Positions 2,761 to 44,079 of a DNA stretch of 48,105 nt are shown here, in pieces; positions within the stretch are counted from its first letter, which is position 1, and the number at the start of each line of letters is the position of its first letter. The DNA is taken from positions 1-48,105 of the forward strand of contig CADCTC010000163.1 in the NCBI GenBank assembly GCA_902805635.1. The letters run 5' to 3'. A program made the position numbers and the translations under genes. Source of the stretch: an uncultured Chloroflexota bacterium. GTDB taxonomy: Bacteria > Chloroflexota > UBA11872 > UBA12225. Below the pieces are notes generated by a model. It did not search any database, had not been told where the DNA came from, and was given only the letters and a program-made list of their open reading frames with translations.

Positions 2761-4349
2761 TGGCTGCCCCAAAAGCGAAGCGCCGGGTGCACCGCCCGAG
2801 CCCCGGTCTGACAGAGGCGTTGCTGTACATCCGCGTCTCCGGCGATGACCAGGAACGCGAGGGGCTGAGCCTTCCTACCCAACTGGCCTCCTGCCGGCGC
2901 TACGCCGCTGAGAAGGGATGGGCCATAGGCGAGGAGTACCGCGATGTGCTGACCGGCACCCGCGATGACCGGCCCGACTACCAGAGGCTGCTCTCCGACA
3001 TTCGGCGGCAGACGACAGCGGGACAGTCCATCGTCGTGGTCGTGCCGCGCCTCGACCGCTTCGGGCGTAAGGTGCTGGAGCGGGTGCGCGCCAGAGAGGA
3101 ACTCAAAGCCCTAGGCGTCACCGTCCACACCGTGGCCGAGGGCGGCGAGGTGTCCGACCTGACGGCCAATATCCTGGCTAGCGTGGCAGAGGAAGAAGTG
3201 CGCCGCCTAGGTGAGCGCGTGTCCGAGGTGATCGCGCACACCGTCAGCAACGGCTGGCACCCGGTCGGCCGCGGCCCGTGGAGTTACCGCTGGCGCCCAG
3301 CGACCGAAGACGAGCGCCGGCAGGGGTCACCCCGCAGCGTGCTGGACGAGGCGGCCGACGAAGCACCGGCGGTGCGCGAGGCGTTCCGTCAAGCGGCGGC
3401 GGGCGAGTCAACCAGGGGCATCGCGCGCTGGGTTGCGGCGCTGCCCGAGCACGCACGCGGCGGGCGGGCACTCAGCAAGCGGCGCGTCCACGACGCACTG
3501 CGCAACCCGGTCTACGTCGGTCGCTTTCCCGCCGATAGCGACTCGCAGGGTGGAGAAATGGACGCTCGCGGCCGGTGGCCGGCGCTCGTTGACCAGGACG
3601 TGTGGCACCAAGTGCAGGGCCGCATCGACCAGCACCACCGGATGCCGCGGCAGGCCAGCAACCGCTACCTGCTGACCGGCCTGCTGCGCTGCCCGTCACC
3701 GTCGTGCGGCGCGCGGATGGCTGGCAGCGGTCAGGGTTCAACCAATCCCCGGTACGTCTGTAGCGCCCATGCGCTCGGCGCAACAGCACCAGAGGCACGG
3801 TGCACAACCTCCGTAACCATGCGCCTATTGGACGATCAGGTACTGGCCGATGTCGCCCGCATCGTCTCACTGACCATCGATCCGCGGCTACTGCCTGCAC
3901 TTCGTAAGGCGTGGCAGACACTCAGGGAGCCGAAGTACGCGGGCGATGCACTCCGCGAGCTGCGCCGCCACGAAGGCGAACGCGGGCGCGCCAAGAAGCG
4001 CCTAGCGGATGCTGCCATCAAGTTGGTGGACGGCGACATCGACAAGGACGGGTACGCTGCGCTGCGCCAGCGAGTAGAACGCGACCTCCAGGCGGCCGAG
4101 GCAGAGATAGCGCGCCTCCGCGACCAGGTGCGCAGCGTGGACGTGGATCTGCCTACCTTCGATGAGGTAATGGCAGAGCTGGGACTGGCGGCGGGTCTGC
4201 TGGAGTCGTCAGTCCCCCACCAGCGCGACGTACTGGCCCGCCTCATCAAGGAAATCAGGCCCATGAAATCAGGCCCATGCGTGTGGCGTATGGGAAGTAC
4301 ATCCCCAAGATCGACTGGACGCCGCTGGGCTTCGGCCTCCATACCGTGA
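2760..4349 (+). CDS. Large serine recombinase (integrase) with frameshifted C-terminus
   Basis: 529 residues from the ATG at 2760, which has AGGAGG 7 nt upstream (a GTG at 2757 is the alternative). The N-terminal resolvase domain spans about residues 19-155; the catalytic Ser is in YIRVSGDD (about residue 27), with the conserved RLDRFGR motif near residue 100. A recombinase domain follows (about 170-290). Next comes a zinc ribbon with Cys pairs (CPSPSCG ... YVCSAH ... ARC) around 305-345, then a charged coiled coil (about 385-450). It should catalyse site-specific integration or excision. The last about 28 residues (after EIRPM) are out of frame because a 14-bp unit is duplicated at 4251-4278. 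Removing one copy restores a frame that reads RPMRVAYGKYIPKIDWTPL and ends at TAG 4373-4375. Activity of the present form is uncertain. Confidence 0.92.
   Translation: MAAPKAKRRVHRPSPGLTEALLYIRVSGDDQEREGLSLPTQLASCRRYAAEKGWAIGEEYRDVLTGTRDDRPDYQRLLSDIRRQTTAGQSIVVVVPRLDRFGRKVLERVRAREELKALGVTVHTVAEGGEVSDLTANILASVAEEEVRRLGERVSEVIAHTVSNGWHPVGRGPWSYRWRPATEDERRQGSPRSVLDEAADEAPAVREAFRQAAAGESTRGIARWVAALPEHARGGRALSKRRVHDALRNPVYVGRFPADSDSQGGEMDARGRWPALVDQDVWHQVQGRIDQHHRMPRQASNRYLLTGLLRCPSPSCGARMAGSGQGSTNPRYVCSAHALGATAPEARCTTSVTMRLLDDQVLADVARIVSLTIDPRLLPALRKAWQTLREPKYAGDALRELRRHEGERGRAKKRLADAAIKLVDGDIDKDGYAALRQRVERDLQAAEAEIARLRDQVRSVDVDLPTFDEVMAELGLAAGLLESSVPHQRDVLARLIKEIRPMKSGPCVWRMGSTSPRSTGRRWASASIP
4251..4278 (+). 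repeat. 14-bp tandem duplication inside the recombinase gene
   Basis: The unit gaaatcaggcccat occurs twice without a gap (4251-4264, 4265-4278). Because 14 is not a multiple of 3, everything downstream is frameshifted. The frame restored by deleting one unit encodes a plausible recombinase C-terminus up to 4375. Confidence 0.9.
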
Positions 4350-15411: not shown

Positions 15412-15471
15412 GCGGTGCCGGCTGCGTTTCACACCGCAGCAGATCGACACCGAACCCTACGACGGCGCCGC

Positions 15472-18150
15472 ATGATCATCTCCCCAGCCCGCACCCCGCA
15501 CCGCACGTCGCTCGCCCCCCGCTCCATCCTGACGCTGCTCGTTGTCGCCCTGCTTCTGGCGTACTGCGCGACCGCGGTCCAGGTGCTCAACCGTCGCGTC
15601 GAGCGCCAGCGCGACGTGACGGGCCACGCCTTCGCCATCTCTGACCTGTTCCCGCGCTGGTATGGCGCACAGGCGATGCTGGCCGGCGTCAGTCCCTATT
15701 CCGAGACGTTTCGAGCAGACCTGCACCGGGAGTACTACGGCGAGCCGAAGACTCGTGAGTGGGAGCGCGACACGTTCCGCAACATCTGCGAGTTCTTCTA
15801 CCCCCCGTTTGTCCTGCTCCCGCTCGTGCCGCTGCTCTGGCTGCCGTTCGAGGTCGTCCGCTGGCTCGCCACGGCCGCCATCGCGGGCCCCATCGGGGCC
15901 GGCGTGCTGCTCTGGCTGCGCCACGCCGGCATCACGCTGAGCCGCCCTCGTGCGGCGGGCGTCGCTGCGCTGGCCGTCGTGTTCTACCCCTCACTCGACG
16001 CGATCCTGCTCCAGCAGCTGACCGGCCTGGTCTTCCTGTACGTCATCGCGGCGGTGTTCCTCGCCGGCCGAAACCGCCACGCTGCGGCGGGCGCGCTGCT
16101 CGCGCTGGCGATGATCAAGCCGCAGTCGGCCCTTATTCCGGCGGCCTGCCTCCTGTTCTGGGCGCTCTGGCAGCGCGATCGCCGGCCAATGCTGCTGTCC
16201 TTCGCCGCTGTGATGGCTGCACAGCTTGCGCTTGCCGAGTGGCTCGTGCCGGGCTGGATCTTCGAGTTCATTGCTGCCAACGCGCGCTACCGCGAGTACA
16301 ACACCATCGGCTTCTGGCTCCCCGGCCAGCTGCTCGGCAGCGACCCGCTCGGCGCCGTTCTCATTGCGGCTCCTCTGGTCGCCCTGCTCGCCTGGGGCTG
16401 GTGGCGCGTTCGCGCGCTGCCACTCAGCGCCGCGCCGGCCGTGCGGGTCGTGGCGCTCACCTTCGTGGCCGGCGTGATCCTGATGCCGGATATCAGCTAC
16501 TACAACAAGATCTTCCTGCTGCCAGCGGTTGCGTTTGTAGTGAGGCATGCCGAAGTCACCGGCGTCTCGGCTCGCCTCGGGAGGCGGCTGTTGCTGCTCG
16601 CACTTGGCGTGCCGGTTCTGTTGTTTCCCTTAGCTACCGCTGTGAGCCGGTTGGCCACTGAGCCGGCCAGCCCGGCCGCCGAAGCACTGGGAACCGCCGC
16701 GGAGGCATGGTTTCTCCTGTTGCCCATCATCGTGCTGCTGGTGTGGTGTGGAAGCGGCAGCCAGAACGTCCGATGGTTGCCGCGGGTTCGGAGGACCAAG
16801 TCGGGAGCCCAGCGTTCATCACTAGGCGATGCGGCCGGCGCTGGTCTGTTGTTCGCGCTGTGGGGAATGATCATCCTCCGGCTGAGCATGCAGTTCGGCC
16901 TCTTCCGGTGGATCGGGGTTGACTTCGGTCTCTTCTGGGCCGCTGCGCGACTGTTCTTCAGTGCAGGACCAGCCGCCGCATATGACCTGGTGGCGCTTGG
17001 CGAGACGCTCCAGTTCTTGCGGCACTTCTACGGCCCTCTGGGTGGCGACCTGATCGTCGGTCCAACGCCGTATCCGCCTCCATTTCTCGCATTGGTCTAC
17101 GTCTTTTCACTTGTTCCGCCGGCACTTGGGTTCGCGCTCTGGACGCTGATGAACGTCTTGTTGGCCGCGTCGGTCCTACGTGATCTCACAACTGAGCGTG
17201 TTTCCCGTCCCACTCTCGTGGCATGCGTCACGTTTACATTCTTCCCGCTGGGCTACGCCATTCTCGTAGGACAGCCGACGGTTATCCTGCTGTATGCCTT
17301 CCATCAATCCATCAAGGCTCTGCGCAGCGGTGCTGATCTGCGCGCTGGCCTCTGGGCGGGCATTCTCCTACTAAAGCCGCAATACGCATTGTTCTACATT
17401 GCGGTTCTTGCCTGGAAGCGCAGGTGGCGGACGCTGGCGGGCGTTGGCGGGACGGCTCTGGTAGTAGCGTCATCGTCGGTCGGCATGCTCGGGACGGAAG
17501 GCATTGCCGCCTTCATACGAATGGCGAGCTACGCTGCTGGGTTCCGCAGCGTCGACCCTATTGCCCTGCCGGACCAAATGATCAGCTGGCGGGGTCTGCT
17601 TGTGAACCTACTGCCCTCGACCGCCAGCGAGCCGTTCGGCCTGGCTGCCACAGCAGCCCTAACGGCACTTTCGACCATGTCGCTCATTGTGGTCTGGAGA
17701 GGTCCGTGGAACCCGCACAACGAACGGTTTCCCGCAAAGCTGTTGGCAATCGGCACCGCAACAATGTTGGGTGCATTCCACAACCATATCCACGGTGCAG
17801 CGCTACTCGCGGTGCCGGGTCTGCTGGCCTATGCAAGCCCAGCAGTAACGCCGTCCGAGCGCCGTGCGCTGCGTTTGAGCAGCGTCGTACCTCTTGCAGT
17901 GTTCTCAGTTTCGCAGTCTATGTCGGCCACAGCAATTGCCCTCAGCGTGGTGCTGGTCGCCTGGCATGGGTACCTCTTTTGGAGAGAAGGCGTGAGTACG
18001 GATTCGATTGCCATTGCCATTCCTCCAGCAACCCGCAAGCTGCTGTTAGGCGCAGCCGCCCTGCTCGGTTGCTGGATCGCGGTGTTCATCGGTGCGTGGC
18101 GGGAGACAGGACTGTTCAAATGGATCGGATATGACTACGCATCGCAGTAG
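15472..18150 (+). CDS. Multi-unit GT87 (DUF2029)-type mannosyltransferase-like protein, ended by an in-frame amber codon
   Basis: 892 residues from ATG 15472 (GTG 15415 is an alternative); GT87 proteins are usually about 400-450. Unit 1 (about 20-440) has SDLFPRW, YPPFVLLPL and IKPQSAL. Unit 2 (about 465-840) has GVDFGLFW, YPPPFLALVYVF, KPQYALFY and FHNHIHGAALL. A third unit begins near residue 841 and ends after GYDYASQ at TAG 18148-18150. Units 1 and 2 have Asp-x4-Trp (DLFPRW, DFGLFW); unit 3 reads DYASQ followed by TAG, one base from TGG. The same frame then continues as the rest of unit 3 to 19296. A ribosome site GGAGAGAAGG before GTG 17992 could start unit 3 separately. Composition appears less GC-rich from about 16.7 kb. 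GT87 enzymes use polyprenyl-phosphate mannose as donor. Confidence 0.72.
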   Translation: MIISPARTPHRTSLAPRSILTLLVVALLLAYCATAVQVLNRRVERQRDVTGHAFAISDLFPRWYGAQAMLAGVSPYSETFRADLHREYYGEPKTREWERDTFRNICEFFYPPFVLLPLVPLLWLPFEVVRWLATAAIAGPIGAGVLLWLRHAGITLSRPRAAGVAALAVVFYPSLDAILLQQLTGLVFLYVIAAVFLAGRNRHAAAGALLALAMIKPQSALIPAACLLFWALWQRDRRPMLLSFAAVMAAQLALAEWLVPGWIFEFIAANARYREYNTIGFWLPGQLLGSDPLGAVLIAAPLVALLAWGWWRVRALPLSAAPAVRVVALTFVAGVILMPDISYYNKIFLLPAVAFVVRHAEVTGVSARLGRRLLLLALGVPVLLFPLATAVSRLATEPASPAAEALGTAAEAWFLLLPIIVLLVWCGSGSQNVRWLPRVRRTKSGAQRSSLGDAAGAGLLFALWGMIILRLSMQFGLFRWIGVDFGLFWAAARLFFSAGPAAAYDLVALGETLQFLRHFYGPLGGDLIVGPTPYPPPFLALVYVFSLVPPALGFALWTLMNVLLAASVLRDLTTERVSRPTLVACVTFTFFPLGYAILVGQPTVILLYAFHQSIKALRSGADLRAGLWAGILLLKPQYALFYIAVLAWKRRWRTLAGVGGTALVVASSSVGMLGTEGIAAFIRMASYAAGFRSVDPIALPDQMISWRGLLVNLLPSTASEPFGLAATAALTALSTMSLIVVWRGPWNPHNERFPAKLLAIGTATMLGAFHNHIHGAALLAVPGLLAYASPAVTPSERRALRLSSVVPLAVFSVSQSMSATAIALSVVLVAWHGYLFWREGVSTDSIAIAIPPATRKLLLGAAALLGCWIAVFIGAWRETGLFKWIGYDYASQ

Positions 18151-18165
18151 GCAGTCGTCCAGGCT

Positions 18166-19296
18166 GTGCTCGCATACGGCCCGTCTGTCATGTTCGATCT
18201 TGAGGCCATCCGCTCCTTTATCGAGCCAGTGGGCATGTACTACGCAGCCGGACAGGGCCCTGCCCACGCGTCTCCGGCGCCGTATCCTCCACTTTTCTTC
18301 GCGGCGGTAATGCCGTTCGCTGTTCTACCACTTCCATTGGGTTTCGGGTTCTGGAGCCTTCTGAACGCAGCGTGCATGGTGTGGGTCATCTATGACCTCT
18401 GCGGCCGGTTTAGGGACGGCCTGAGCAACCGTATCGCCCGCACGTTGCTGGTTACCTCATTTTTCTCAGTACCGTTCACGCTCTTAGTTGGGCAGTCGAC
18501 TGGTCTCTGGCTCGTGGCACTATGCCGCGCCTACCTGGACCTGGAGCGCGGTCGCGATTTCAGGGCAGGACTCTGGCTCGGCGTACTGCTGGCAAAGCCG
18601 CAATATGCCGTTGGCATCTTGCTCGTGCTGCTGCTGAAGCGCCGCTGGCGTTCACTTGCCGGCGGATCATTAATAGGAGCCGTCCTTCTGCTTACCTCGC
18701 TCGCCGTAGTTGGCATTGACGGTGCCACCGCATACCTGCGCATGACGCGCGATATGTCCGGTTTCTGGGAGCGGGAAGTCTTCCCTGAGGCAATGATTGG
18801 GTGGAGGGGATTGCTGGCATTCGTGTTACCCCCTGCCACGCCGGCCAGCACTGGAACGGCGGTGACGTATGTCCTGTCTGGGCTCGCATTCGCATCCCTA
18901 GCGCTGATCTGGAGAGGTACCTGGCCGTCCAAGCCTGGAGAGCTCGCGCCGCGCATGCTTGCCACTTTGCTTGCCACTACGCTCGGTGCCTTCCACAATC
19001 ACGCTTATGGGGCTGCGCTGCTGGTTGTACCCGCCGTGTGTGTCCTGTCCGAGAGGCCGGATCTCACCTTCCTTCGGCAGCTATTTGTAGCGGCGCTCGC
19101 CATGCCCGTACTGCTGTTCGTCATCACGCTCGATACTCCGCTCTCATCGGCTGTGCTCTCAGTGCTGCTGGTAGTTGCATGGTCTTGGCTTACCGTTAGC
19201 AGCCTCGCTAAGGATTCTCTGCCCCAGGCAGCCATCGTTCGATCGGTGCTGACGGGTAATGTCGCCACTCGGCGTGGGGCTACGGCGGCTGCGTGA
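18166..19296 (+). CDS. Remainder of the third GT87 unit, in frame after the amber codon
   Basis: 376 residues if begun at GTG 18166; only five codons separate it from the TAG, in the same frame. It starts mid-domain (LAYGPSVMFDLEAI), aligning with SAGPAAAYDLVAL of unit 2. It contains YPPLFFAAVMPF, KPQYAVGILLVLLLKRRWRSLAGG, IGWRGLLAFVLPP and LGAFHNHAYGAALLVVP, so everything after the N-terminal Asp motif of a GT87 enzyme is present. No ribosome site precedes GTG 18166. It is best read as the distal part of one gene split by a point mutation; it is non-functional alone unless the TAG is read through or is a sequencing error. Its stop overlaps the next gene (GTGA). Confidence 0.7.
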   Translation: MLAYGPSVMFDLEAIRSFIEPVGMYYAAGQGPAHASPAPYPPLFFAAVMPFAVLPLPLGFGFWSLLNAACMVWVIYDLCGRFRDGLSNRIARTLLVTSFFSVPFTLLVGQSTGLWLVALCRAYLDLERGRDFRAGLWLGVLLAKPQYAVGILLVLLLKRRWRSLAGGSLIGAVLLLTSLAVVGIDGATAYLRMTRDMSGFWEREVFPEAMIGWRGLLAFVLPPATPASTGTAVTYVLSGLAFASLALIWRGTWPSKPGELAPRMLATLLATTLGAFHNHAYGAALLVVPAVCVLSERPDLTFLRQLFVAALAMPVLLFVITLDTPLSSAVLSVLLVVAWSWLTVSSLAKDSLPQAAIVRSVLTGNVATRRGATAAA

Positions 19297-27980: not shown

Positions 27981-29162
27981 GTGCCAGGCGGTCGCGGCGG
28001 GCTGTGGCCGCTGTTGCTGGGGTTTGGGCTGGGGTCGTTCGCCTGGAACGTGTGCGCGCCGTTCCTGCCGCTGCGCATCCAGGAGCTGGGCGTGGCGGAC
28101 CTGGGGCAGGTGGCGCGGCAGGCGGGCTTCCTGGTTGGCGTGAGCGGCATGCTCAACGCCACATTGGCGCCGGCCTGGAGCTGGGTGGGCGGGCGCTACG
28201 GGTACCGGCAGCAGGTGCTGCGTGCGCACCTGGGGACAGCGCTAGGGTGGTCGCTGTACGGACTGGCGCGCACGCCCCTGCAGCTGGGAGGCGCGGCGGT
28301 GGCGCTAGGTGGGCTGAGCGGGAACTACCCGCACTACGTGGCACTGGTAGCGGCGCGCGCCGGCCCTGGCGCCATGGGGCGGGCAGTGGGGGACCTGCAG
28401 GCCGCGTCGCAGGTGGGCAACACGCTCGGACCGCTGGTGGGCGGGCTGATCGCCAGCCAGGCCGGCGTGCAGATGACGTTCTTCTTTACCGCGGGGATCT
28501 CGCTGGTGGCGGCGGCGCTGGCGGCGGCGCTGGTGCCGGCGGACACGGGCCGCGCCGGCCAGCGCAGCGAGGGCGAGAGCATGGGCGCCGCGTGGCGCCG
28601 GCCGGAGCAGCGCTGGCTCATGGCGCTGCTCATGCTGGGGGACACCGCGATTATCGGGCTGCGACCCCTGGTGCCGGTGGTGCTCAGCGCACGCATTCAG
28701 GACCCCTCTACGCTCGCGGCCGCGACGGGCGTCACCACCACGCTGGCGACGGCGGGGACGATCGTGGCGGCGGTCGTGGTGGGACGCATCAGCCGGGGGG
28801 TGGCGCCGGGGCGGGTGCTGGCGATGACGCTGGCGGTGGCGGCGGTCTGCGTCGCGCTGGTGCCGTTCGCGCCCAGCGTGCCGGTGCTGATCGCGCTGTG
28901 GGCGCTGGCCGGGCTGGCGGGCGGTGCAACGACACCGGCGGTGTTCGCCTGGCTCAGCCAGGTGGCGCCCCGTGGTGCGGGCGGCTATGCGCTGCTGGCC
29001 AGCACCAGCATGGCCACCTACGCGCTCGGCCCTATTGTGATGGGGCAGGCCAGCGCGACGAGCCTTGACCTGCCGTTCTACCTATCTGCCGGGGCCGCGC
29101 TGGCGGCGGCGGTACTGGCCCTAGGCATAAGGCTGCGCCCGCCGCGCCTGCCACAGCGGTGA
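27981..29162 (+). CDS. Major facilitator superfamily transporter
   Basis: About 393 residues from GTG 27981. In-frame codons before it (to 27915) are Arg/Cys-rich and unlikely. Twelve predicted membrane helices in two halves: LWPLLLGFGLGSFAWNVCAPFLPL at the N-terminus, an MFS motif-A-like loop VGGRYGYRQQVLRAHLG after helix 2, and a repeat at GRISRGVAPGRVLAMTLAV in the second half. Probably a drug or metabolite exporter; substrate unknown. The last 131 bp overlap the oppositely directed epimerase-like gene. The transporter's own C-terminus looks complete. Confidence 0.85.
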   Translation: MPGGRGGLWPLLLGFGLGSFAWNVCAPFLPLRIQELGVADLGQVARQAGFLVGVSGMLNATLAPAWSWVGGRYGYRQQVLRAHLGTALGWSLYGLARTPLQLGGAAVALGGLSGNYPHYVALVAARAGPGAMGRAVGDLQAASQVGNTLGPLVGGLIASQAGVQMTFFFTAGISLVAAALAAALVPADTGRAGQRSEGESMGAAWRRPEQRWLMALLMLGDTAIIGLRPLVPVVLSARIQDPSTLAAATGVTTTLATAGTIVAAVVVGRISRGVAPGRVLAMTLAVAAVCVALVPFAPSVPVLIALWALAGLAGGATTPAVFAWLSQVAPRGAGGYALLASTSMATYALGPIVMGQASATSLDLPFYLSAGAALAAAVLALGIRLRPPRLPQR

Positions 29163-30279
29163 TGCGGCACCAAGTGCGCCAGGTCTGGCCGGGCTCGAGA
29201 TCCACCATACCGGTGTCCTGGCCGGCGGCGGCGAGGTTGAACCCGTTGGGCACGATGGTGCAGATGACGGGTGAGACGCACACGGTGGGCTCGCGCGGCG
29301 CCCAGAGCACCACTGAGCGGAAGTCGCTGCTGGTCTCCACCTTTAGCGAGAGGTTGTGTCGCGTGTCGGTGATCGACCAGCGCACGCCGCGGTCGTCACC
29401 CGGCGGGTTGGCGTAGTTGTACATCATGCCGCCGTTAGGCAGGCGATGCGCCACGGCCGCCAGCAGGTCCACCACGCGCGGAGACTGACGCAGGTCGGCG
29501 ATGCCGGCCACGGGGGTAAGCTGGCCCTCGTTCTCGCCCGCGGTTTCCACCTGGTGCGTCACGTCCGACCACACCGCACAGTCCTCCCAGCTACCGCCGG
29601 CCACCATCGGGAACGGCACGTAGGGGTGGATTCCCATCGCCACCGGGATCGGCGCGTCGTGCAGGTTCTCGGCCTCCACTTCCATGGTCAGCGTTGCGCC
29701 GCGCAGCGTCTGAGTGGCGGTGAAGCGGAAGGGGAAGGGATATTGCCCCAACATTGTCTCGTTGCCGGCATTAGTGATAGAAGCGTGGAGGTGGTCACCA
29801 TCGCCGTCGGTCCAGGTGCGCTCCACCGTCCACGGATGGTCGCGCACCACGCCGTGCACCACGCGCCGCTCGCGCGTGGGCCGCAGCGGGTAGTCGCGTC
29901 CACGGTAGCGCAGCGTGCTGTCGCTGATTCCCATTGGAAAGGGGAAGAGCAGCGGGTTGCCACAGAACACCGGTCGGGCGTGCAGCCGTTCCATGGACGG
30001 CGGCTCTGCCAGTGACGGCCACCAGCCGCCGGTACCTTCCAGCCCCGGCACCCCCGGCGCCGGCACGCGCAGCGACGTGCAGTAGAAGCCTTCTGACGGC
30101 GCGAAGCCGGCGATGGCGCCGGGCTGGCGCAGCCAGTGCTCAGCGGGTACATCGGCGGGTGTTGGCATGGTCGACGGGCTCGTCGTGGAGCCAGTGAGTG
30201 GCGTCTGCGGTGTCTGTGGTGCGGTTGTCACAGGCGCATCATACGGAACGTCACGGCGATGCTTCACAACAGAGCCCAT
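29032..30279 (-). CDS. Aldose 1-epimerase-like protein (galactose mutarotase fold) with read-through C-terminus
   Basis: Up to 415 residues from ATG 30279, with no clear ribosome site; an internal start such as MPTPAD near residue 38 is possible. Mutarotase features: PLLFPFPMG, VHGVVRDHPW (substrate His region), a hydrophobic strand series, and MGIHPYVPFP with the second conserved His. The natural end should be near LEPGQTWRTWCRITAV. The frame instead continues 40-odd residues antisense into the MFS gene, rich in Pro/Arg and unlike the family, suggesting a lost stop codon. Likely interconverts sugar anomers or binds a hexose derivative. Confidence 0.8.
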   Translation of the reverse strand: MGSVVKHRRDVPYDAPVTTAPQTPQTPLTGSTTSPSTMPTPADVPAEHWLRQPGAIAGFAPSEGFYCTSLRVPAPGVPGLEGTGGWWPSLAEPPSMERLHARPVFCGNPLLFPFPMGISDSTLRYRGRDYPLRPTRERRVVHGVVRDHPWTVERTWTDGDGDHLHASITNAGNETMLGQYPFPFRFTATQTLRGATLTMEVEAENLHDAPIPVAMGIHPYVPFPMVAGGSWEDCAVWSDVTHQVETAGENEGQLTPVAGIADLRQSPRVVDLLAAVAHRLPNGGMMYNYANPPGDDRGVRWSITDTRHNLSLKVETSSDFRSVVLWAPREPTVCVSPVICTIVPNGFNLAAAGQDTGMVDLEPGQTWRTWCRITAVAGAAGAALCLGPVPPPPARPRQIGRTAGQGSSRWPAPSQ

Positions 30280-30465
30280 AGCGCGGCCTGTGGCGCTGGG
30301 GACGTGGTGTTCTTATCGCCGTTTTGACCCAGTTAACACCGTAACTTGACTTTAACCCCCCCAACAGGCTAACGGTGTCGGGGGCGCACGGGTACTTCGT
30401 AGTGTTGTGTTGTCAACAGATTGTCCGCTCACGAGGGCGGGCAACGGACAAGAGGACACCACAAG
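30280..30465. promoter_or_regulatory. Divergent promoter region before the TasA-like operon
   Basis: An AT-richer 186-bp gap between divergent genes. TTGACT (30346-30351) with TAACGG about 18 nt later is a possible forward promoter. Imperfect inverted repeats flank it: ACACCGT (30336-30342) and ACGGTGT (30372-30378). Further on, gtgttgtcaacag is a short near-palindrome. A repressor could bind here; no regulator gene is adjacent. Confidence 0.4.
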
Positions 30466-31002
30466 ATGAAGCTTCGGATCGCCGGCGTTGGGCTGATGCT
30501 GACCTCACTGGCCTACGCTGTCAACGTGTACGCGTTCACCACCGCAACTGTGAACTCGGCCGGGTCGCTGAACGTCACCACCACCGACCAGCTGCTCGCC
30601 ATCGAGCCGCACGGCGGCGCGGACAACCCGGCGGGCATGCTCTCGCGTGACGCGGTGGGCAAGGTAACCCTGAACTTGGGCAGCAATGGCACGGCGAGCA
30701 AGGGTGTGCAGGGGGACGCGACCTACACCTACGACAACGTGATCCGCGTGGTGAACAACAACGCCACGGCCAAGGACATCAGCCTGGCAGCCGCGAGTCT
30801 GCCGGCGGGCGTGACGCTGACCTACAGCGTGACCGCTTTCAACAGCACCAATAGCACGTGCGGTACGCCGAACTACGCCGCGCCGGTGACGACGCTGAAC
30901 GCGACGGCGGGTGGCAAGGTGTGCGTCAGCTTCAAGGCCGCCACCTCTACGTCGGTGAGCGCGGGCGCCAACACCTTCGCGCTGACGGTCTCGGCCGCAT
31001 AG
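30466..31002 (+). CDS. Exported TasA/DUF1102-like protein 1
   Basis: 178 residues from ATG 30466 (ribosome site aagagga). Signal peptide MKLRIAGVGLMLTSLAYAVNVYA, with cleavage expected before FTTATVNSAGSL. The mature N-terminus (A-F/Y-T-x-A-T-V-x-[ST]-x-G) recurs in the next two genes and resembles the A-[FY]-F-[ST]-D...G start of Bacillus TasA/camelysin and archaeal DUF1102 proteins. The rest is a Thr/Ser/Asn-rich beta-type domain with one Cys pair (STCGT ... GKVCVSF). Probably a secreted surface or fibre-forming subunit matured by the SipW-like peptidase encoded at 32099. First gene of a five-gene operon. Confidence 0.72.
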   Translation: MKLRIAGVGLMLTSLAYAVNVYAFTTATVNSAGSLNVTTTDQLLAIEPHGGADNPAGMLSRDAVGKVTLNLGSNGTASKGVQGDATYTYDNVIRVVNNNATAKDISLAAASLPAGVTLTYSVTAFNSTNSTCGTPNYAAPVTTLNATAGGKVCVSFKAATSTSVSAGANTFALTVSAA

Positions 31003-31016
31003 CGCAATACTTAGGT

Positions 31017-31499
31017 ATGCGCCGGCCAGTGCTCACGCTGCTCCTGCTGGCGCTGGCGCTGCCGGCGGTCTCGGCGGTGTGGGCGTACACCACCGCGACG
31101 GTGCGCACGAGCGGCAATGGCGCGTTCCGCGTTGTCGCCGCCCAACCGGCGGCGGGCGAGCGGCCCTACGTCTACTGCAGTGCGGCCGACGTGACGCTCA
31201 GCCAGCGCGACAGCGACACCATGCCGGTGACGTGCTACAACGGCCTGGCGCACGCTGTCACGCTGTCGATCTCGTACTCGTACAGCCCCAGCGCGCAGCG
31301 GCCTCCGTCTTTCAGTCCTGGTAGCCCGTTCAGCTTGACAGTGCCAGCCAACGGCCAGGCCACCGCTACGCTCGGCGTGACCACGCCGCCAAACCGGACG
31401 AGGAGCACGTACACCATCTCCTATACGGTGTCCACGTCCGGGACCCAGGGGGTGGAGGTCTCCGGAATCGGCTTCACCAGCATCCTGGACGTCACCTGA
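31017..31499 (+). CDS. Exported TasA/DUF1102-like protein 2
   Basis: 160 residues from ATG 31017, 14 nt after the previous stop. Signal peptide MRRPVLTLLLLALALPAVSAVWA, then YTTATVRTSGNGAFRVV, matching the mature start of protein 1. The C-terminal part (about 65-160) is beta-rich, with VPANGQATATLGVTTPPNRTRSTYTISYTVSTSG, an immunoglobulin-like pattern; Cys residues in VYCSAAD and MPVTCYN may pair. Secreted, function inferred from the operon. Confidence 0.68.
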   Translation: MRRPVLTLLLLALALPAVSAVWAYTTATVRTSGNGAFRVVAAQPAAGERPYVYCSAADVTLSQRDSDTMPVTCYNGLAHAVTLSISYSYSPSAQRPPSFSPGSPFSLTVPANGQATATLGVTTPPNRTRSTYTISYTVSTSGTQGVEVSGIGFTSILDVT

Positions 31500-31551
31500 T
31501 GCCTCGCGCGGTTACATCTACACGGATGCGGCGCCGAGAAGGGCTGGAGCG

Positions 31552-32076
31552 GTGAGACGGTTGGTGGCGCTGGTGGTGCTGGCGCTGCTGGTTGCTGGCA
31601 CGGTGACGTGGGTTGATGCGTTCTCGGGCGCGAGCGCGCGATCGACGGGCGCGCTGACGGTGGTGCGCAGCGACACTGCGCTGCTGGCGGTCGGGCCGTG
31701 CGAGGACAGCTGCGACGCAAACAAGACGGGGATCGCCTACTTTCAGTCGGGCGGCACGCAGCTGCTCCTGGACTTCCGCAAGGGCGCCACCGGCGGGACC
31801 ACCTTCGGCGTGCAGGCGGGAGCGACGTACACGTTTAAGCGACTGGTGTGGGTCACCAACAACGCCGGGCGCGCGGTGGACGTGACTACCAATGTGACGG
31901 GCGGCAGTCCGGACCTGGTGTGGGTGAGAGATCAGAATAGCCGTACGTTGGTTGGGTCCGGCGCGGGCGCCGTGACGGTGCCGGCAGGCGGGCGGCTGGA
32001 GCTGGACTTCCGCTGGCAGGGGAACAGCACGGCAGGGACACAGCGCGCGCTGCAGATGACGGTGTCTGCGCGCTAG
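31552..32076 (+). CDS. Exported TasA/DUF1102-like protein 3
   Basis: 174 residues from GTG 31552 with GGAG close upstream. Signal MRRLVALVVLALLVAGTVTWVDA, then FSGASARSTGALTVVRSDTALLAVGP. The segment [LV]-x-V-x-x-[ST]-D-x-x-L-A-[VI]-x-P is shared with protein 1 (LNVTTTDQLLAIEP) and recalls archaeal DUF1102 proteins. A Cys pair (PCEDSCD) and a C-terminal beta domain (VPAGGRLELDFRWQGNSTAGTQ) follow. Third putative substrate of the adjacent peptidase. Confidence 0.68.
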   Translation: MRRLVALVVLALLVAGTVTWVDAFSGASARSTGALTVVRSDTALLAVGPCEDSCDANKTGIAYFQSGGTQLLLDFRKGATGGTTFGVQAGATYTFKRLVWVTNNAGRAVDVTTNVTGGSPDLVWVRDQNSRTLVGSGAGAVTVPAGGRLELDFRWQGNSTAGTQRALQMTVSAR

Positions 32077-32098
32077 GGCCGCGGAGCCAGGCGCACGG

Positions 32099-33271
32099 AT
32101 GATGGACGCGATTGGCCTAGAGAGCGTCCGTCAGGCGCTGGGGGAGTGGAAGGACTGGTGGGCGGGCTGCGCGGCAGCGTGGGAGTGGTGGCTACGACCG
32201 GCACGCTGGGTGCTCAACACGCTGATGGCGCTCGGGGCGCTTGGCGCGCTGGCGATGATCGCGGGTGGGGTGCTGCAGCGCCCGGTGCTGCTGGGGGCGA
32301 TCCCGTCTGGCTCGATGGAGCCCGGCATGCGGGCGGGGGACCTAGCGCTGATCGTACCGGTAGAGGCCGCCCCGCTGCTTGCGCCGGTGGTGGGCGAGAT
32401 CGACGACGGCGCCGTGGTGGTGTTCCGCTCCGATGGCCGGCGTTGGATCGTGCACCGCATCGTGGGGGGAGACGCGGCGAGCGGGTACGTCACTAAAGGC
32501 GATGCGAACGAGGCGTCCGATAGTGCGCGCATCGCTCCAGAGGACATAGTAGGCGTGGTGCCTCAGTGGGGCGGGGGGCCGGTACGCCTGCCGGGGTTTG
32601 CCCGGCTGACCACCTCTCTGGCGTTCCTGCGCCATCCCGCAGTGGCGGCCATAGCCGGGCTCGGCTCGGTGGCCGCGCTGCTGTTTGGAGGGCGTTCCAC
32701 CCGCACGCTGCGGCGGAAGCGCCCTAAGGCAGCCGGCGGCGAGCACGCGCTGCTGTATGGCGGCCTGGCGCTCACGACCTGGACGGTGGTGACGCTGCAG
32801 AGCGTGGTCACCACCGTCCCGATTGACGGGCACTTCACCGTGGTGCAATCGAGCCGCAGCGCCCTGATCGAGGGCGAAGTACTGGCGGGAACGGTGCGCA
32901 GCGAGACGCTGCGGCTCGACAATCCTTTCCCCGTACCGGTGGCGGTGGTGGTGACCGTGGCGAGCGAGGGAGTGACGGCGGAGCCGGACAGGATGATCGT
33001 GGCGCCGCGGAGCGCTGCGGAGCACCGCCTGAGCATCTCCGGGCACTTGCCGCCGGGCCGCCACGCGCTGGCGGTGCGGCGCGCCTTCTATCTGCCGGTG
33101 CTGCCGCTTGACTTGCTTGTGTCGTTGGGACGGGTCAGTCCGCTGCTGGCTGCTGCCGCGGTGGGGCTGGTCCCGGGCACGGTGGTCCTGCTCGTGGCCG
33201 CCGTGGATCGAGACGTGCGACGTGCGGTACGTGTATGGCTCCTGCGCGCCTGGCTGCGCGTGTCCGCTTGA
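32099..33271 (+). CDS. SipW/ER-type signal peptidase I with a C-terminal extension
   Basis: 390 residues. A membrane helix (VLNTLMALGALGALAMIAGGVL, about 40-60) is followed by the peptidase domain: nucleophile Ser in IPSGSMEPGM (about 72), GDLALIVPV, and RWIVHRIVGG (about 118), where the His replaces the general-base Lys of bacterial enzymes, then YVTKGDAN. This Ser/His arrangement defines the SipW/archaeal/ER type. After about residue 160 come more hydrophobic segments and a beta-type domain (HFTVVQSSRSALIEGEVLAGTVRSETLRLDNPF..., about 240-325), ending in further membrane helices. That is about twice the length of SipW (190). It probably releases the three upstream exported proteins at the outer membrane face. 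Confidence 0.85.
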   Translation: MMDAIGLESVRQALGEWKDWWAGCAAAWEWWLRPARWVLNTLMALGALGALAMIAGGVLQRPVLLGAIPSGSMEPGMRAGDLALIVPVEAAPLLAPVVGEIDDGAVVVFRSDGRRWIVHRIVGGDAASGYVTKGDANEASDSARIAPEDIVGVVPQWGGGPVRLPGFARLTTSLAFLRHPAVAAIAGLGSVAALLFGGRSTRTLRRKRPKAAGGEHALLYGGLALTTWTVVTLQSVVTTVPIDGHFTVVQSSRSALIEGEVLAGTVRSETLRLDNPFPVPVAVVVTVASEGVTAEPDRMIVAPRSAAEHRLSISGHLPPGRHALAVRRAFYLPVLPLDLLVSLGRVSPLLAAAAVGLVPGTVVLLVAAVDRDVRRAVRVWLLRAWLRVSA

Positions 33272-33295
33272 CTGGAGCTATGCTAGAGCCATTCT

Positions 33296-34657
33296 ATGGA
33301 GGTGAGAGCGCGGCCGCCGCGACGTGCGCTGCGTGCGCTGGCCGCAGTCGCGGCGGTTGCTGCGCTGGTGCTTGCTGCCACCTGGGTGTGGCTGCGTCTA
33401 CAGCCAGAAGTCGTGGTGGCGCAGAGCACAACGCTGGCCTACCGGCAGCAAGTAGACATGGACTACAGGGCGGCCGTGACGCCAGGAGCGGTCTATCCGT
33501 CCCCGATGGTGCAGCCGAGCGACCTGCCACGCTGGCAGATGCAGGCGGAGCCGCCGGTGTACCGGCGGGCGCTGATCACCCGCCTGCTGGAGGGCCTGAC
33601 GCTGGAGTTCCCATACGCGATCGAGTTCGACCGGCCGGTGGCGGTGACGGGCACACTGAAGGTCCAGGCGCTCCTGGTGGGACAGCGCCTATGGCAGCGC
33701 CCGCTCTCGCTGGTAGCGCCGCACGTCATCCGCGCAGAGGGCCGGCAAGTGGCGGGAGCCGCACGTGTAGACGTGGACGTGCGGGCGCTGGCGATAGAGC
33801 TTGCCGCGGCGTTCGAGGAGGCGGGGCTGGTCCCCGGCGCGGGCGAGCTCTGGCTGGACGCTGCGATCGAATGGGAGGCGACTCCGCTCGATGGCGGGAG
33901 CGGCGCAACAGTGGGAGCGGCTCAGACGGCGCAGCAGGCGCCTGGAACAGGAGCAGCACAGGCAGGGCAGGCAGGGCAGGCAGGACAGGCAGGACAGGCA
34001 GGACAGGCAGCGCAGCCTGTCACGGCGCAGATGGTGAAGGGGACGCTGGCCGGCACGCGCCACGTGATCGGGTTTATGGCGGGGTATGTCGAGATCGAAG
34101 AGCATCCTCCGGCAACTCAGGACCAACGTGTCGCGGCCACGACGCGCTCGCCCGCGACGATTCAGGGGTGGCCCTTGGCGGATGTGCGGCGGGTGGCTGG
34201 CTGGGGCGCCCTGGCCGCTTTACTGGCGGCTGGGGGACTGTCGTCCTTGGCGCGTCGGGGGCGCTTGTCAGGCTCCGGGGACACAGCATCGCGACGGCGT
34301 GAGCCCACGCTGGAGCGGCTGGCGCTCTCGGCCACGTCCGTAGGGTTTCAGCCGGGCGCCGGGCTGACGCGTGTCGAGGTCACTTCGGCCCGCGAGCTGC
34401 TCAAGCTGCACGCGAGCACTGGCCGGGCGATCATCCGCACGGATGATGCCTATCACGTGTTGGACGATACGGTCTGGTTCATGTATTCGTTGGGGCAGCC
34501 GGCAGCCGTCGGGCCTGCCAGGGTGACTGAGCTCAGCCCGCGCGCGCAGCCGCCGGATGATGACCGCACCACCAGGGACAGGGCACACAGCGTGGCGGAT
34601 GGACGCTGGGCGCCTTCCCATTTGACGCCACTGCCGGAGCGCAAGGAACCGGCCTAA
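33296..34657 (+). CDS. DUF5305-like membrane protein with an Ala-Gly-Gln linker
   Basis: 453 residues. N-terminal membrane helix (AALVLAATWVWLRL, about 22-36), then an external beta-rich domain (about 45-200) with DYRAAVTPGAVYPSPMV and LEFPYAIEFDRPVAVTGTLKV. A Gln-Ala-Gly repeat linker follows (about 220-240), a segment with GFMAGYVEIEE, a second membrane helix (GWGALAALLAAGGLSSLA, about 302-320) and a cytoplasmic tail with VTSARELLKLHASTGRAIIRTDDAYHVLDDTVWFMY. This two-helix plan and tail resemble archaeal DUF5305 proteins, which I recall near signal peptidases. Possible role: anchoring or assembling the exported subunits. Function unproven. Confidence 0.7.
   Translation: MEVRARPPRRALRALAAVAAVAALVLAATWVWLRLQPEVVVAQSTTLAYRQQVDMDYRAAVTPGAVYPSPMVQPSDLPRWQMQAEPPVYRRALITRLLEGLTLEFPYAIEFDRPVAVTGTLKVQALLVGQRLWQRPLSLVAPHVIRAEGRQVAGAARVDVDVRALAIELAAAFEEAGLVPGAGELWLDAAIEWEATPLDGGSGATVGAAQTAQQAPGTGAAQAGQAGQAGQAGQAGQAAQPVTAQMVKGTLAGTRHVIGFMAGYVEIEEHPPATQDQRVAATTRSPATIQGWPLADVRRVAGWGALAALLAAGGLSSLARRGRLSGSGDTASRRREPTLERLALSATSVGFQPGAGLTRVEVTSARELLKLHASTGRAIIRTDDAYHVLDDTVWFMYSLGQPAAVGPARVTELSPRAQPPDDDRTTRDRAHSVADGRWAPSHLTPLPERKEPA
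33959..34012 (+). repeat. 9-bp coding minisatellite (Gln-Ala-Gly)
   Basis: Five tandem copies of CAGGCAGG(G/A) plus a sixth ending CG, encoding Gln-Ala-Gly repeats in a linker of the DUF5305-like protein. Units are multiples of three, so copy-number change would alter linker length without frameshift. Confidence 0.85.
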
Positions 34658-34684
34658 CCGGCCACTTGCCTGGCAGCCGCGCGG

Positions 34685-35704
34685 CTACGCCATGATGGCG
34701 AGCTGCTCTTTGGTGACCTGGTACTGGAGCGGCTCACCGCGCAGGAACCGCTCGATCTCTTCCACCATGGCACGACCCTGTGCCAGGTGGCTGTCCACCG
34801 AGTGGCCGGCTTCGTGGGGGGTGACCACCACGTTGGGCAGCGTGAGGAAGGGCGAGCCGGGATCTAGCGGCTCTTTCTCGAAGACGTCCAGGGCAGCGTA
34901 GAAGCGGCCGGTCTGCAGCTCGGGCAGCAGGGCAGTGTAGTCGACGGTGTACGCGCGGGCGGTGTTGACGAAGACAGCGCCGGGCTGGATCAGCTTGAGC
35001 TGCTGGGCGCCAATCAGGCCCTTGGTCTCCGGCGTGATGGGGGCGTGGTTGGAGATGACGCGGCTTTCGCGGAAGAGCGTTTCCAGGTCCACCTTGCGCA
35101 CGCCCTGCTCGCGGGCGACTGCGTCGTCCAGGTATGGGTCGAAGACCAGCACCTGCGGGTGGAACGGGCGCAGCAGGGCCAGGTGCTTGCGCGCGACGTA
35201 ACCCAGGCCCACCAGGCCGACCGTCTTGCCGGCCAGCAGTTCGCCCGGCCGCTCGCGCAGCTCAGACCAGGGCTTGCCCGCACGCATGCCACGGTCAAGC
35301 TCGTGCACGCGGCGCAGGCAGAGCAGCTCCAGGAGCAGAGTCATCTCGGCCACCGCGTCCGCGATCATGGCAGCCGCGTGCGTGACGGTAATGCCCCGCT
35401 CCCACGCAGAAGGGTCGATGGGGCCCTTGACGCTGCCGGCGGTGTGGGCGATGAGCTTGAGGTGGGGGGCGGCCTCCAGCAGGTCGGCGGTGACCTTGGC
35501 GCTCTTCCACCCGGTGAGCGCGACGTCGGCCTGCGAGAGCACGTCGCGCACTTGCTCCGGGCTGGCCGGGTCAGCGTGCGCCACGGCGCCGAGGCGCGAG
35601 AGGCGCTCGGCAGCGTCCGGCGGGATGACCTGCTCCCAGGTGCTCTTGGGGATCAGGACCGCGATCTGGGCTTCGGCGCCCGGTGCGTTACGGGAGGATG
35701 TCAC
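34685..35704 (-). CDS. D-isomer-specific 2-hydroxyacid dehydrogenase
   Basis: 339 residues from GTG 35704. NAD-binding motif VGLVGLGYVARKHLALL (about 160). Catalytic triad: Arg in NTARAYTVD (about 250), Glu in DVFEKEPLD (about 278) and His in TPHEAGHS (about 300), as in phosphoglycerate and glyoxylate/hydroxypyruvate dehydrogenases. It reduces a 2-keto acid or oxidises the D-2-hydroxyacid. It follows a sugar-binding gene, so the substrate may derive from a sugar acid. TACCAT lies 7 nt before the GTG with no ribosome site, suggesting a leaderless transcript; in-frame codons upstream run through a hairpin and look non-coding. Confidence 0.9.
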   Translation of the reverse strand: MTSSRNAPGAEAQIAVLIPKSTWEQVIPPDAAERLSRLGAVAHADPASPEQVRDVLSQADVALTGWKSAKVTADLLEAAPHLKLIAHTAGSVKGPIDPSAWERGITVTHAAAMIADAVAEMTLLLELLCLRRVHELDRGMRAGKPWSELRERPGELLAGKTVGLVGLGYVARKHLALLRPFHPQVLVFDPYLDDAVAREQGVRKVDLETLFRESRVISNHAPITPETKGLIGAQQLKLIQPGAVFVNTARAYTVDYTALLPELQTGRFYAALDVFEKEPLDPGSPFLTLPNVVVTPHEAGHSVDSHLAQGRAMVEEIERFLRGEPLQYQVTKEQLAIMA

Positions 35705-35720
35705 GAAGGGGATGGTACCG

Positions 35721-35770
35721 CGTGTGGCGCCGACCGCTTGCCCCTTGACGCAAGCGGTCGGCGCCACACG
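35721..35770. terminator. Perfect 20-bp inverted repeat between two reverse-strand genes
   Basis: The arms 35721-35740 and 35751-35770 are exact complements around the 10-nt loop ccccttgacg. On the reverse strand it begins 10 nt after the sugar-binding gene's stop and ends just before the putative -10 box of the dehydrogenase. It has no T tract, so it is a non-canonical terminator, a 3'-end stabiliser, or an operator. Confidence 0.7.
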
Positions 35771-41750: not shown

Positions 41751-41935
41751 TGGGCCGTAAGTCACGCCACATCGTGGCCCAGGCTCTCATTTACGGCAGC
41801 GGCCGGGTGCGGTGGGGCGTGGTGGTCGACACCGCAGAGGACGCCGCCAGCATGTATCCGACTGACGAAATCTGCCGCCGGCACTTTCGCGCGCTGGCGG
41901 CGGAGCTCAAGGCGTGGCGCAGGGTGTCAGCGTGA
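41750..41935 (+). CDS. 61-residue phage protein of unknown function
   Basis: ATG 41750 overlaps the previous stop and has GGAGG about 8 nt upstream. The product has a basic start (MGRKSRHIVAQAL), a beta-like middle (WGVVVDTAEDAASMY) and a helical end. Its TGA overlaps the start of the primase-helicase gene. No family is recognised; the double coupling makes it a credible gene. Confidence 0.6.
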   Translation: MGRKSRHIVAQALIYGSGRVRWGVVVDTAEDAASMYPTDEICRRHFRALAAELKAWRRVSA

Positions 41936-44079
41936 TGCAGACGTTGGCACCTACCTGGCCAGGGGCGGCTCTCCCGCCGCCCCCGCTGACGCTCGACGTG
42001 GTGACGTTCGAGAACGCACTCGACACGCTGCCCAAGCCCAAGCGCACGACGTGGGACGCGCTGGTGCGCTCGCTCTCCTCGCACCGGGAGCGCACCGAGA
42101 AAGATGGCAGCGCGTGGGCCCCCGCGGCGTACCGGGTCGGCACAACCCGCGGCAAGGAGAACGTCACCCACGTTGGTGCACTCGTCTTCGATGTTGACCA
42201 CGGGGAGCCCGCCTGGCAACTCCTGGAGGGCTATGAGCACATCGTCCACACGACGTTCAGTAATTCGGACGCCAATCCGTCGTACCGCGTCGTGATCCCG
42301 CTGGCCCGCCCGGTGGACGCTGCGGAATGGGAGTCATTCTGGCACCGGAGCCGGGCGGCGCTGTGCCCGACGGTAGACGACGCCTGTAAGGACGCCTCGC
42401 GCCTCTTCTACACGCCGTCGTGCCCGCCGGGCGCGCCGCGGCGCGTGGTACATGGTGCGGGCCGCTTCCTGGACCCGGACGAAGTACCACCACTGCCCGA
42501 GGTGGATGCCGCGGCCGAGCCCGCGCACATCATCCGGGGCGACGGCAGCCGACCGGGTGATGACTTCAACCGGCGCGGCGACGTTCGCGCCCTCATTGAG
42601 CGCCTCGGCTGGAAACTGCGCTACGCGCGCGGCGCGGAGTCGTACTGGCTGCGGCCGGGCAAGCGCGGCGGCACGCACTCGGCCACGCTGAACTACCAGG
42701 ATACCGGGCTGTTCTACTGCTTCACGTCCAGCGCCCCGCCGCTCGAGCCCGGCAAGGCATACACCCCGTTCGCATTGTTCGCGCTGCTGGACCACAACGG
42801 CGACTGGCGCGCGGCGACCAGGGCGCTGGCGGCGCAGGGCTACGGCGCTCCGCTGGCACCTAGCCCGACCATCTCTGCCAAGTCTGCCGCGAAGGCTGAC
42901 ACTCAAAACGTTGGCAGCCTTCGGCAAAGTTGGCAGCCTTCGGGGGTTTTGGTCTGCCTCTCGGACGTGGTGGCGGAGTCCGTGACGTGGGCGTGGGACA
43001 AGCGGTTCCCGTTCGGCAAGTTGTCCATCATCGACGGCGACCCAGGCAACGGCAAGTCGTCGCTGACCATGGACGTGGTGGCGCGGCTCAGCACCGGCAG
43101 CCCAATGCCGGACGGCAGCGCCAGCGACACTGATGGCCCGGTCACTTCCATCATCATGACCATGGAGGACGGCCTGGGGGATACCGTCCGCCCCAGGCTG
43201 GAGGCCGCCGGCGCGGACCTCAGCCGCGTCATCGCCCTCACCTACGTGCTGGAGGAACCCAAGGGAGACGCCGAGCAGCCCACGAAGAGGCTGCCGAGCA
43301 TCCCGCGCGACGTGGAGGTACTACGCGCGGCCATCAAGAAGCACGGCGCGCGGTTCGTGGTAATTGACCCGTTGATGGCGTACCTCACGTCCGACTCGCA
43401 CAAGGACCAGGAGGTGCGCCAGGGGCTCGCCCCCCTCGCAGACCTGGCAGAGGAGCTGGGGGTCGCCATCGTCATCGTGCGGCACTTCAACAAGGCTGCA
43501 GGTGGGAGTGCCATTTACCGAGGCGGTGGCTCCATCGGCATCATCGGCGCCGCGCGCTCCGCCATGCTAGTGGCGAAAGACCCGGACGACCCGGACGGCG
43601 CGCGGCGGGTGCTGGCGTCGGCAAAGTGCAACCTGTCGGAGCCGCCGCAGTCGCTGGCCTACCACCTGGAAGGAGCCGCCAATGGCGCCGTCCGCGTGGT
43701 GTGGGAGGGTGACAGCGCGCACACCGCGTCACAGCTCCTGGCTATCCCGCCCGACGAGGAGGAGCGGTCCGCCCTCAGTGAAGCGGAAGACGTGCTCCGC
43801 ACCATCCTGGTCAACGGCGCCATGCCCGCTAAGGAGGTGCAGTCGCAAGCGCGCAATGCCGGCATAGCGGAGCGCACGCTGTGGCGCGCCAAGCGCAGCC
43901 TGGGCGTAGTGGCCGCCAAAGTCGGTTTTTCGCAGGGCTGGTGCTGGTCCCTTCCAGCGGTCGACGATGGGCCGAAGGCTGCCAAAAAAGACGAAGGCTG
44001 CCAACGTTTTGAGTGTCAGCCTTCGCGGCAGACTTCGGGAACGGCGGCCGAAGAGGAGGTGGACGAGTGGACGGCGTGA
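41935..44079 (+). CDS. Phage primase-helicase: AEP-like primase domain plus RepA/RadA-type AAA ATPase
   Basis: 714 residues from ATG 41935 (TGATG overlap). N-terminal primase-polymerase-like domain: hydrophobic-Asp-x-Asp motif ALVFDVDHG (about 82-90), NPSYRVVIPLARPV (about 118), DDACKDASRLFYTPSCPPG (about 150). A linker (about 315-340) carries one arm of a 44-bp inverted repeat. The ATPase domain has Walker A GDPGNGKSS (about 368), a MEDG motif (about 410) and Walker B FVVIDPLMAY (about 473), then RHFNKAAGGSAIYRGGGSIGI, like plasmid RepA helicases. A winged-helix-like end (VLRTILVNGAMPAKEVQSQAR) precedes the second repeat arm in the C-terminal tail. Probable role: primer synthesis and unwinding at the phage origin. 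Confidence 0.82.
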   Translation: MQTLAPTWPGAALPPPPLTLDVVTFENALDTLPKPKRTTWDALVRSLSSHRERTEKDGSAWAPAAYRVGTTRGKENVTHVGALVFDVDHGEPAWQLLEGYEHIVHTTFSNSDANPSYRVVIPLARPVDAAEWESFWHRSRAALCPTVDDACKDASRLFYTPSCPPGAPRRVVHGAGRFLDPDEVPPLPEVDAAAEPAHIIRGDGSRPGDDFNRRGDVRALIERLGWKLRYARGAESYWLRPGKRGGTHSATLNYQDTGLFYCFTSSAPPLEPGKAYTPFALFALLDHNGDWRAATRALAAQGYGAPLAPSPTISAKSAAKADTQNVGSLRQSWQPSGVLVCLSDVVAESVTWAWDKRFPFGKLSIIDGDPGNGKSSLTMDVVARLSTGSPMPDGSASDTDGPVTSIIMTMEDGLGDTVRPRLEAAGADLSRVIALTYVLEEPKGDAEQPTKRLPSIPRDVEVLRAAIKKHGARFVVIDPLMAYLTSDSHKDQEVRQGLAPLADLAEELGVAIVIVRHFNKAAGGSAIYRGGGSIGIIGAARSAMLVAKDPDDPDGARRVLASAKCNLSEPPQSLAYHLEGAANGAVRVVWEGDSAHTASQLLAIPPDEEERSALSEAEDVLRTILVNGAMPAKEVQSQARNAGIAERTLWRAKRSLGVVAAKVGFSQGWCWSLPAVDDGPKAAKKDEGCQRFECQPSRQTSGTAAEEEVDEWTA
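42880..42923 (+). repeat. 44-bp inverted repeat, left arm
   Basis: Exact reverse complement of 43992-44035. The outer part carries TTGGCAGCCTTCG at 42911; a second copy starts at 42930, a 19-bp period. The arm lies between the primase and ATPase domains. Confidence 0.95.
43992..44035 (-). repeat. 44-bp inverted repeat, right arm
   Basis: Exact reverse complement of 42880-42923, in the 3' end of the same gene. A second copy of the core (CGAAGGCTGCCAA at about 43974) is again 19 bp away. A partial copy (CCGAAGGCTGCC) occurs at 44151 in the next gene. Confidence 0.95.

Follow-up and report, generated by a model that had tools for sequence, protein, structure and literature searches.

In Bacillus, tapA-sipW-tasA encodes a dedicated SipW-type signal peptidase, and the available part of one study (PMC9674648) describes for this system an N-terminal donor strand in TasA and a starter protein, TapA, the N-terminus of which resembles that strand. 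TasA-like proteins are called widespread in bacteria and archaea in the accessible portions of two further papers (PMC10903470 and PMC10151520). Haloarchaea carry the tafi system (TafA/TafE), the subject of a 2025 study in iScience that is cited in PMC12687288, and PDB entry 9p0a bears the title of a Tafi pilus from Natrinema sp. J7-2. Here we describe a cluster of five genes, A to E, in the first 48,105 nucleotides (the window) of contig CADCTC010000163.1 from an uncultured Chloroflexota bacterium. The cluster is probably a bacterial relative of the archaeal DUF1102/TafA pilus clusters, specifying what is likely to be a thin surface pilus with subunits that would be trimmed by their own SipW-type peptidase and joined by donor strands. 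Judged by sequence, A, C, D with its C-terminal extension, and E have homologues in the archaeal clusters, and one such cluster encodes a pilin resembling that of the solved Tafi pilus.

When all five proteins were scanned with Pfam and NCBIfam models, D alone exceeded a cut-off, and profiles built from relatives were therefore used. The subunit profile was seeded with two Thermococci and two Bacillota proteins, window sequences being excluded; with these four sequences the values were 2.9e-9 for C and 2.4e-5 for A, improving to 2.1e-13 and 5.3e-13, respectively, once the profile had been enlarged in one further round that still excluded the window. The Thermococci seeds are DUF1102 proteins by Pfam (1.3e-52 and 1.1e-42), and of the Bacillota seeds the Peptococcaceae protein scores 23.0 against the DUF1102 (PF06510) cut-off of 22.2 and the Bacillus protein falls below it at 15.6; the Pfam DUF1102 model itself reported neither A nor C. 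By these profiles A and C belong to the DUF1102/TafA family. An alignment of the family (A2, 51 rows) matched PDB chain 9p0a_C, labelled 'Pilin', at 3.6e-40, and the sequence of C alone returned no match among PDB chains. The predicted structure of C (pLDDT 74, pTM 0.65) had the 9p0a Tafi pilus as its top PDB match in a fold search, and the model is thus consistent with the pilin fold of the archaeal DUF1102/TafA cluster. TasA was missing from the 50 listed rows of each fold search with C, a result that does not exclude likeness to TasA. The Ala-Phe pair of the proposed cleavage site is nearly invariant in A2 (columns A23-F24, at least 90%), and the 9p0a chain comprises 215 residues of which 188 are in the structure, as would fit a mature start at this phenylalanine.

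A preliminary description of the locus, made from the DNA letters alone, had noted a shared mature N-terminus in three exported proteins, and this observation is borne out: the strict motif A[FY][TS]xAxxx[ST]xG occurs in 3 of the 326 window open reading frames (ORFs) of at least 60 amino acids, namely A, B and C, with cleavage proposed by eye at VYA/FTT in A, VWA/YTTATVRTSG in B and VDA/FSG in C. A second motif ascribed to two proteins is exact in A (LNVTTTDQLLAIEP), and C has one extra residue (LTVVRSDTALLAVGP), such that the relation is a resemblance between different patterns. Over the start of the mature proteins the DNA of A and B forms a 38-nt repeat of 74% identity. The claim of three TasA/DUF1102-like subunits holds for A and C as DUF1102/TafA family members and fails for B, and none matched a TasA model at an E limit of 1. 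B, which has three relatives at 48-54% (alignment A4), showed no profile link to A or C, was missed by the subunit-family profile and had no Pfam match; it belongs to the subunit group by its N-terminal motif only, its body being not detectably related to A or C. Since B combines an A-like N-terminus with a different body, much as TapA relates to TasA, we propose, by analogy, that B may be a starter or adapter subunit.

Gene D encodes what appears from model and active-site evidence to be an archaeal-type (S26B) signal peptidase. It scores 62.3 bits with TIGR02228 (cut-off 51.85), and in an alignment of D with seven relatives (A1) Ser72, His119, Asp135 and Asp141 are invariant across all eight rows, in keeping with the SGSMEP and VHRIVGG motifs pointed out initially. 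The some 200 extra residues reported at the same time were also confirmed, D reaching 235 residues beyond the S26 core. The seven aligned relatives lack most of the first ~30 residues, and the true start may therefore lie downstream. A protein search with D (7999 candidates scored) found 11 proteins including the window's own, the best of the others at 54%. Each of the 11 matches the A1 profile across the extension as well, although most are themselves A1 rows. In species genomes there were 274 pattern matches, of which 199 encode a relative, and the best 80 of the 199 were retained as loci. By their titles, 76 of these are Halobacteria, the others being a Thermococci bin (L022), Bacillus sp. 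FJAT-29814 (L010), a Peptococcaceae bin (L003) and Virgisporangium (L065), in which the match is limited to the S26 part; in 77 of the 80 a single significant segment runs through the extension. Within the window's phylum 80 of 400 genomes, the window's included, match D at 1e-8, and among the matches listed the extension was reached only in the window's genome and one other, G134; a third candidate, L095, proved a chance match (segment E value 110). In a midpoint-rooted tree D groups with the metagenomic proteins P0002-P0005 (99/99), beside a Bacillota pair and P0009, and the G134 copy, which has a long branch, falls within the archaeal portion. Recent transfer of the window genes from haloarchaea is unsupported, given the grouping of D with the four metagenomic proteins. 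Among plasmids, D matched two records, which are from Haloferax and align in the S26 part only.

The gene set recurs in the survey of gene order that had been proposed. The survey covered the 68 extended-peptidase loci, from the best 80, with 2.5 kb on both sides, strand not being required; the remaining 12 comprise ten with short flanks (eight of which show DUF5305) and two without an extension match. DUF5305 lies within 3 kb in 61 of the 68, an ORF of 130-300 amino acids matching the subunit profile within 4 kb in 59, and both are present in 54; without L058, the extension segment of which is not significant alone, the counts are 60, 58 and 53 of 67. Being mostly haloarchaeal and related, the surveyed loci are not independent. 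The Natrinema gari locus (L038) has the same set, and its first subunit is identical to 9p0a_C over the 80 comparable residues. G134 has genes for a subunit, the peptidase, another exported protein and DUF5305, in an order that is also seen in L022 and in a Halobacteriales locus (L026:5413-11309). Relatives of B (P0013) and of D (P0002) are each encoded on a 5977-base contig, probably one and the same. Thus, in the window as in the archaeal DUF1102/TafA clusters, an extended S26B peptidase and a DUF5305 protein stand beside the subunits.

The identification of E as a diverged DUF5305 member depends on a profile seeded with one Halostella and one Thermococci protein, the window again excluded: E was not found in the two-sequence round, and was matched at 6.7e-10 with 56 rows and at 5.9e-21 with 84. 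The Pfam model (PF17231) gives 13.0 bits against a gathering cut-off of 29, and when E itself was the query of a protein search (7997 candidates scored), one relative was found, at 40%. The two hydrophobic helices and Gln-Ala-Gly repeats attributed to the last gene are present. In the AlphaFold model (mean pLDDT 68.7) a helix precedes a beta-rich outside part, after which another helix leads into a small inside domain; residues 341-400 are modelled with 10-residue mean pLDDT values of 75-91 and are also conserved in alignment A3. The Gln-Ala-Gly stretch, a 9-nt tandem repeat within the outside part that is possibly a length-variable linker, is poorly modelled, and fold searches with the model gave no clear relative. 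The predicted cytosolic domain, which is conserved and follows the second helix, would suit a sensor by which the cell interior is informed of export or of fibre load, a role for DUF5305 that we regard as rather unlikely since the protein is commonly fused to the peptidase in relatives, which favours work on the peptidase's products.

DUF5305 occurs in 28 of the 400 genomes of the phylum. With the window's genome set aside, one region was taken from each of the other 27; 26 had a DUF5305 frame by local profile, and in 20 of these it shares a single frame with the peptidase; 18 of the 20 fused frames retain the SMxP and HR motifs. A small protein with a hydrophobic N-terminus is encoded immediately upstream in 18 of the 20 fused loci, immediately downstream in 18 and on both sides in 16, and the downstream protein has an RTX-like motif in 17 (Pfam HemolysinCabind in both of the two tested). 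Profiles detected no relation of the upstream protein to A/C or to B. These compact three-gene operons (L143-L168, for example L159:6902-9631), with genes that overlap by a few bases, run in the order small exported protein, fused SipW-type peptidase-DUF5305, small exported RTX-like protein. The fusion ties DUF5305 to the peptidase, whatever subunits are served, and DUF5305 is likely to be a partner of the trimming peptidase. More tentatively, DUF5305 might be an assembly platform that passes subunits from cleavage into a donor-strand fibre, the phylum having both a five-gene, archaeal-like form and a compact three-gene form with a calcium-binding RTX-like cap. Searches by name of the available collection of papers found none on DUF5305, DUF1102 or PDB 9p0a.

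The RTX-like exported proteins of the compact operons, together with the distinct body of B, could also be accommodated by a dedicated export and processing module in which D cleaves A, B and C and these remain beta-sandwich proteins, monomeric or bound to the envelope, with E an anchor or chaperone. Beta-sandwich folds are common on surfaces, and a filament of A-C is a prediction from genes and models. The sequence family of A and C and their best fold matches are, however, those of polymerising pilins, and we consider the non-polymerising arrangement improbable. A dedicated export module combining a SipW/S26B peptidase, DUF1102-like subunits and a DUF5305-like protein, as first suggested, is supported.

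The preliminary description had gone further, regarding the module as the equivalent of the Bacillus TasA system, and a true TasA/camelysin-type matrix fibre could be argued from the SipW-type peptidase, from the reported spread of TasA-like proteins to archaea, and from a comparison of a TasA-type pair with the subunit profile (94% probability, E value 1.6e-7 for a single comparison of two sequences with the signal peptide included). Against this, models of TasA, camelysin (Peptidase_M73) and SipW-cognate proteins reported none of A-C at an E limit of 1, and D scores 34.3 bits with the SipW equivalog NF046067, for which the cut-off is 190. In Bacillus sp. FJAT-29814, moreover, both kinds stand side by side as separate gene sets: a stretch of ~7 kb (L010:3364-10634) holds a sipW-tasA-like set and a DUF1102-like/DUF5305/extended-peptidase set, in which the DUF5305 protein (60.5 bits, cut-off 29) adjoins a weakly DUF1102-like gene. 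The TasA-type explanation is therefore highly unlikely, the nearest cluster being the archaeal DUF1102/TafA (tafi) one, and DUF5305 does occur in Bacillus. Amyloid-like fibres are likewise unsupported, as the solved relatives are pili. Of the checks proposed at the outset, profile searches recovered DUF5305 and the subunit family through relatives' profiles, with the Pfam DUF1102, Peptidase_M73 and DUF5305 models giving scores below cut-off or none, and structure prediction for C returned the pilin-type fold of 9p0a without TasA among the rows listed.

If the locus does encode a pilus, the precursors of A-C would exit by the Sec route and D would cleave each before an aromatic residue, after VYA, VWA or VDA. 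An ordinary signal peptidase may cut such sites badly; cleavage after Ala would leave Trp (B), Tyr (A) or Asp (C) at P2, and Trp at this position of TasA is said, in the available part of PMC10269814, to hinder LepB. The freed N-terminus of a subunit could then enter the next as donor strand, with B capping or starting the fibre as TapA does for TasA. E might keep freshly cleaved subunits, or the base of the fibre, at the membrane, a role suggested by its position next to D here and its fusion to the peptidase in relatives.

The five genes are all on the + strand (30466-34657), with intergenic gaps of 14, 52, 22 and 24 bp, and lie between genes on the opposite strand for an aldose epimerase (29032-30279) and a 2-hydroxyacid dehydrogenase (34685-35767), in agreement with the five-gene cluster originally delineated. 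A simple scan of 30250-34760 found no sigma-70-like promoter.

Features of the five-gene cluster, in window coordinates
Feature	Position	Strand	Description
Gene A	30466-31002	+	178 aa; exported DUF1102/TafA-type subunit, likely pilin
Gene B	31017-31499	+	160 aa; exported, A-like mature N-terminus; proposed starter/adapter subunit
Gene C	31552-32076	+	174 aa, GTG start; exported DUF1102/TafA-type subunit, likely pilin
Gene D	32099-33271	+	390 aa; predicted signal peptidase of S26B (SipW/archaeal) type, extended at the C-terminus
S26B core of D, with Ser72 and His119	32237-32563	+	residues 47-155
Extension of D	32564-33268	+	common to archaeal and Bacillota relatives
Gene E	33296-34657	+	453 aa; diverged DUF5305 membrane protein, by profile
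Predicted beta-rich outside domain of E	33410-34135	+	AlphaFold model
Gln-Ala-Gly repeat of E, 9-nt units	33944-34015	+	DNA repeats
Conserved predicted inside domain of E	34298-34489	+	AlphaFold model pLDDT and alignment A3

The host is a bacterium by its small-subunit rRNA, which scores 629 bits with the bacterial and 437 bits with the archaeal model over the same stretch. The bin shows a sign of contamination, two RNA polymerase beta-type (PF00562) matches (G000:C323 and G000:C99), and the assignment of the contig to this genome is accordingly provisional. Elsewhere the genome encodes one PF10502 signal peptidase; no second match to D was found in it, and profile A2 at E<=0.01 detected A and C only across the whole genome. 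None of the eight other genomes sampled from the same family had DUF5305 at 1e-5. The window also contains a serine recombinase gene (Resolvase, Recombinase and zinc ribbon; 2757-4349), two adjacent GT87 glycosyltransferase genes (15415-19296) and a gene for an AAA_25 protein of 721 amino acids (41914-44079).

Should this interpretation be correct, the link between DUF5305 and the pilin peptidase, strengthened by the natural fusions, gives DUF5305 a functional frame, and the archaeal tafi/bundling-pilus pathway extends to a bacterial phylum. Pilin, extended peptidase and DUF5305 would then be its constant parts, and Tat or Sec export and B-type partners its variable ones.

With haloarchaeal tafi the window shares the subunit family, by profile and fold, and a pilin gene neighboured by those for an extended S26B peptidase and DUF5305; it differs in that its host is a bacterium. 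The twin-arginine motif is the export signal feature by which Tat subunits are judged. Judged by eye, A lacks an Arg pair in its signal, and B and C are only possible Tat substrates, each with an Arg pair (RR) at residues 2-3 but a strongly hydrophobic signal helix (19-residue means of 2.33 and 2.28). The NCBIfam TafA/TafC/TafE models did not match A-C at an E limit of 1; haloarchaeal relatives do match them, yet below cut-off. Identity to the Pyrobaculum calidifontis bundling pili (PDB 7ueg) is 9% over the aligned part. The Bacillus system has a dedicated SipW-type peptidase like the window, and its TasA is a distant relation of the subunit family, but its TasA and SipW models fail on the window proteins and its SipW (L010), at 193 amino acids, is without the extension present in D. 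Content is shared with the Thermococci locus L022, which has two strong DUF1102 genes, an extended peptidase, another exported protein and a DUF5305-like gene. There, as in G134 and L026, an exported protein is encoded between peptidase and DUF5305, whereas in the window D and E have no such gene between them, and A/C and E have diverged beyond the reach of the Pfam DUF1102 and DUF5305 models.
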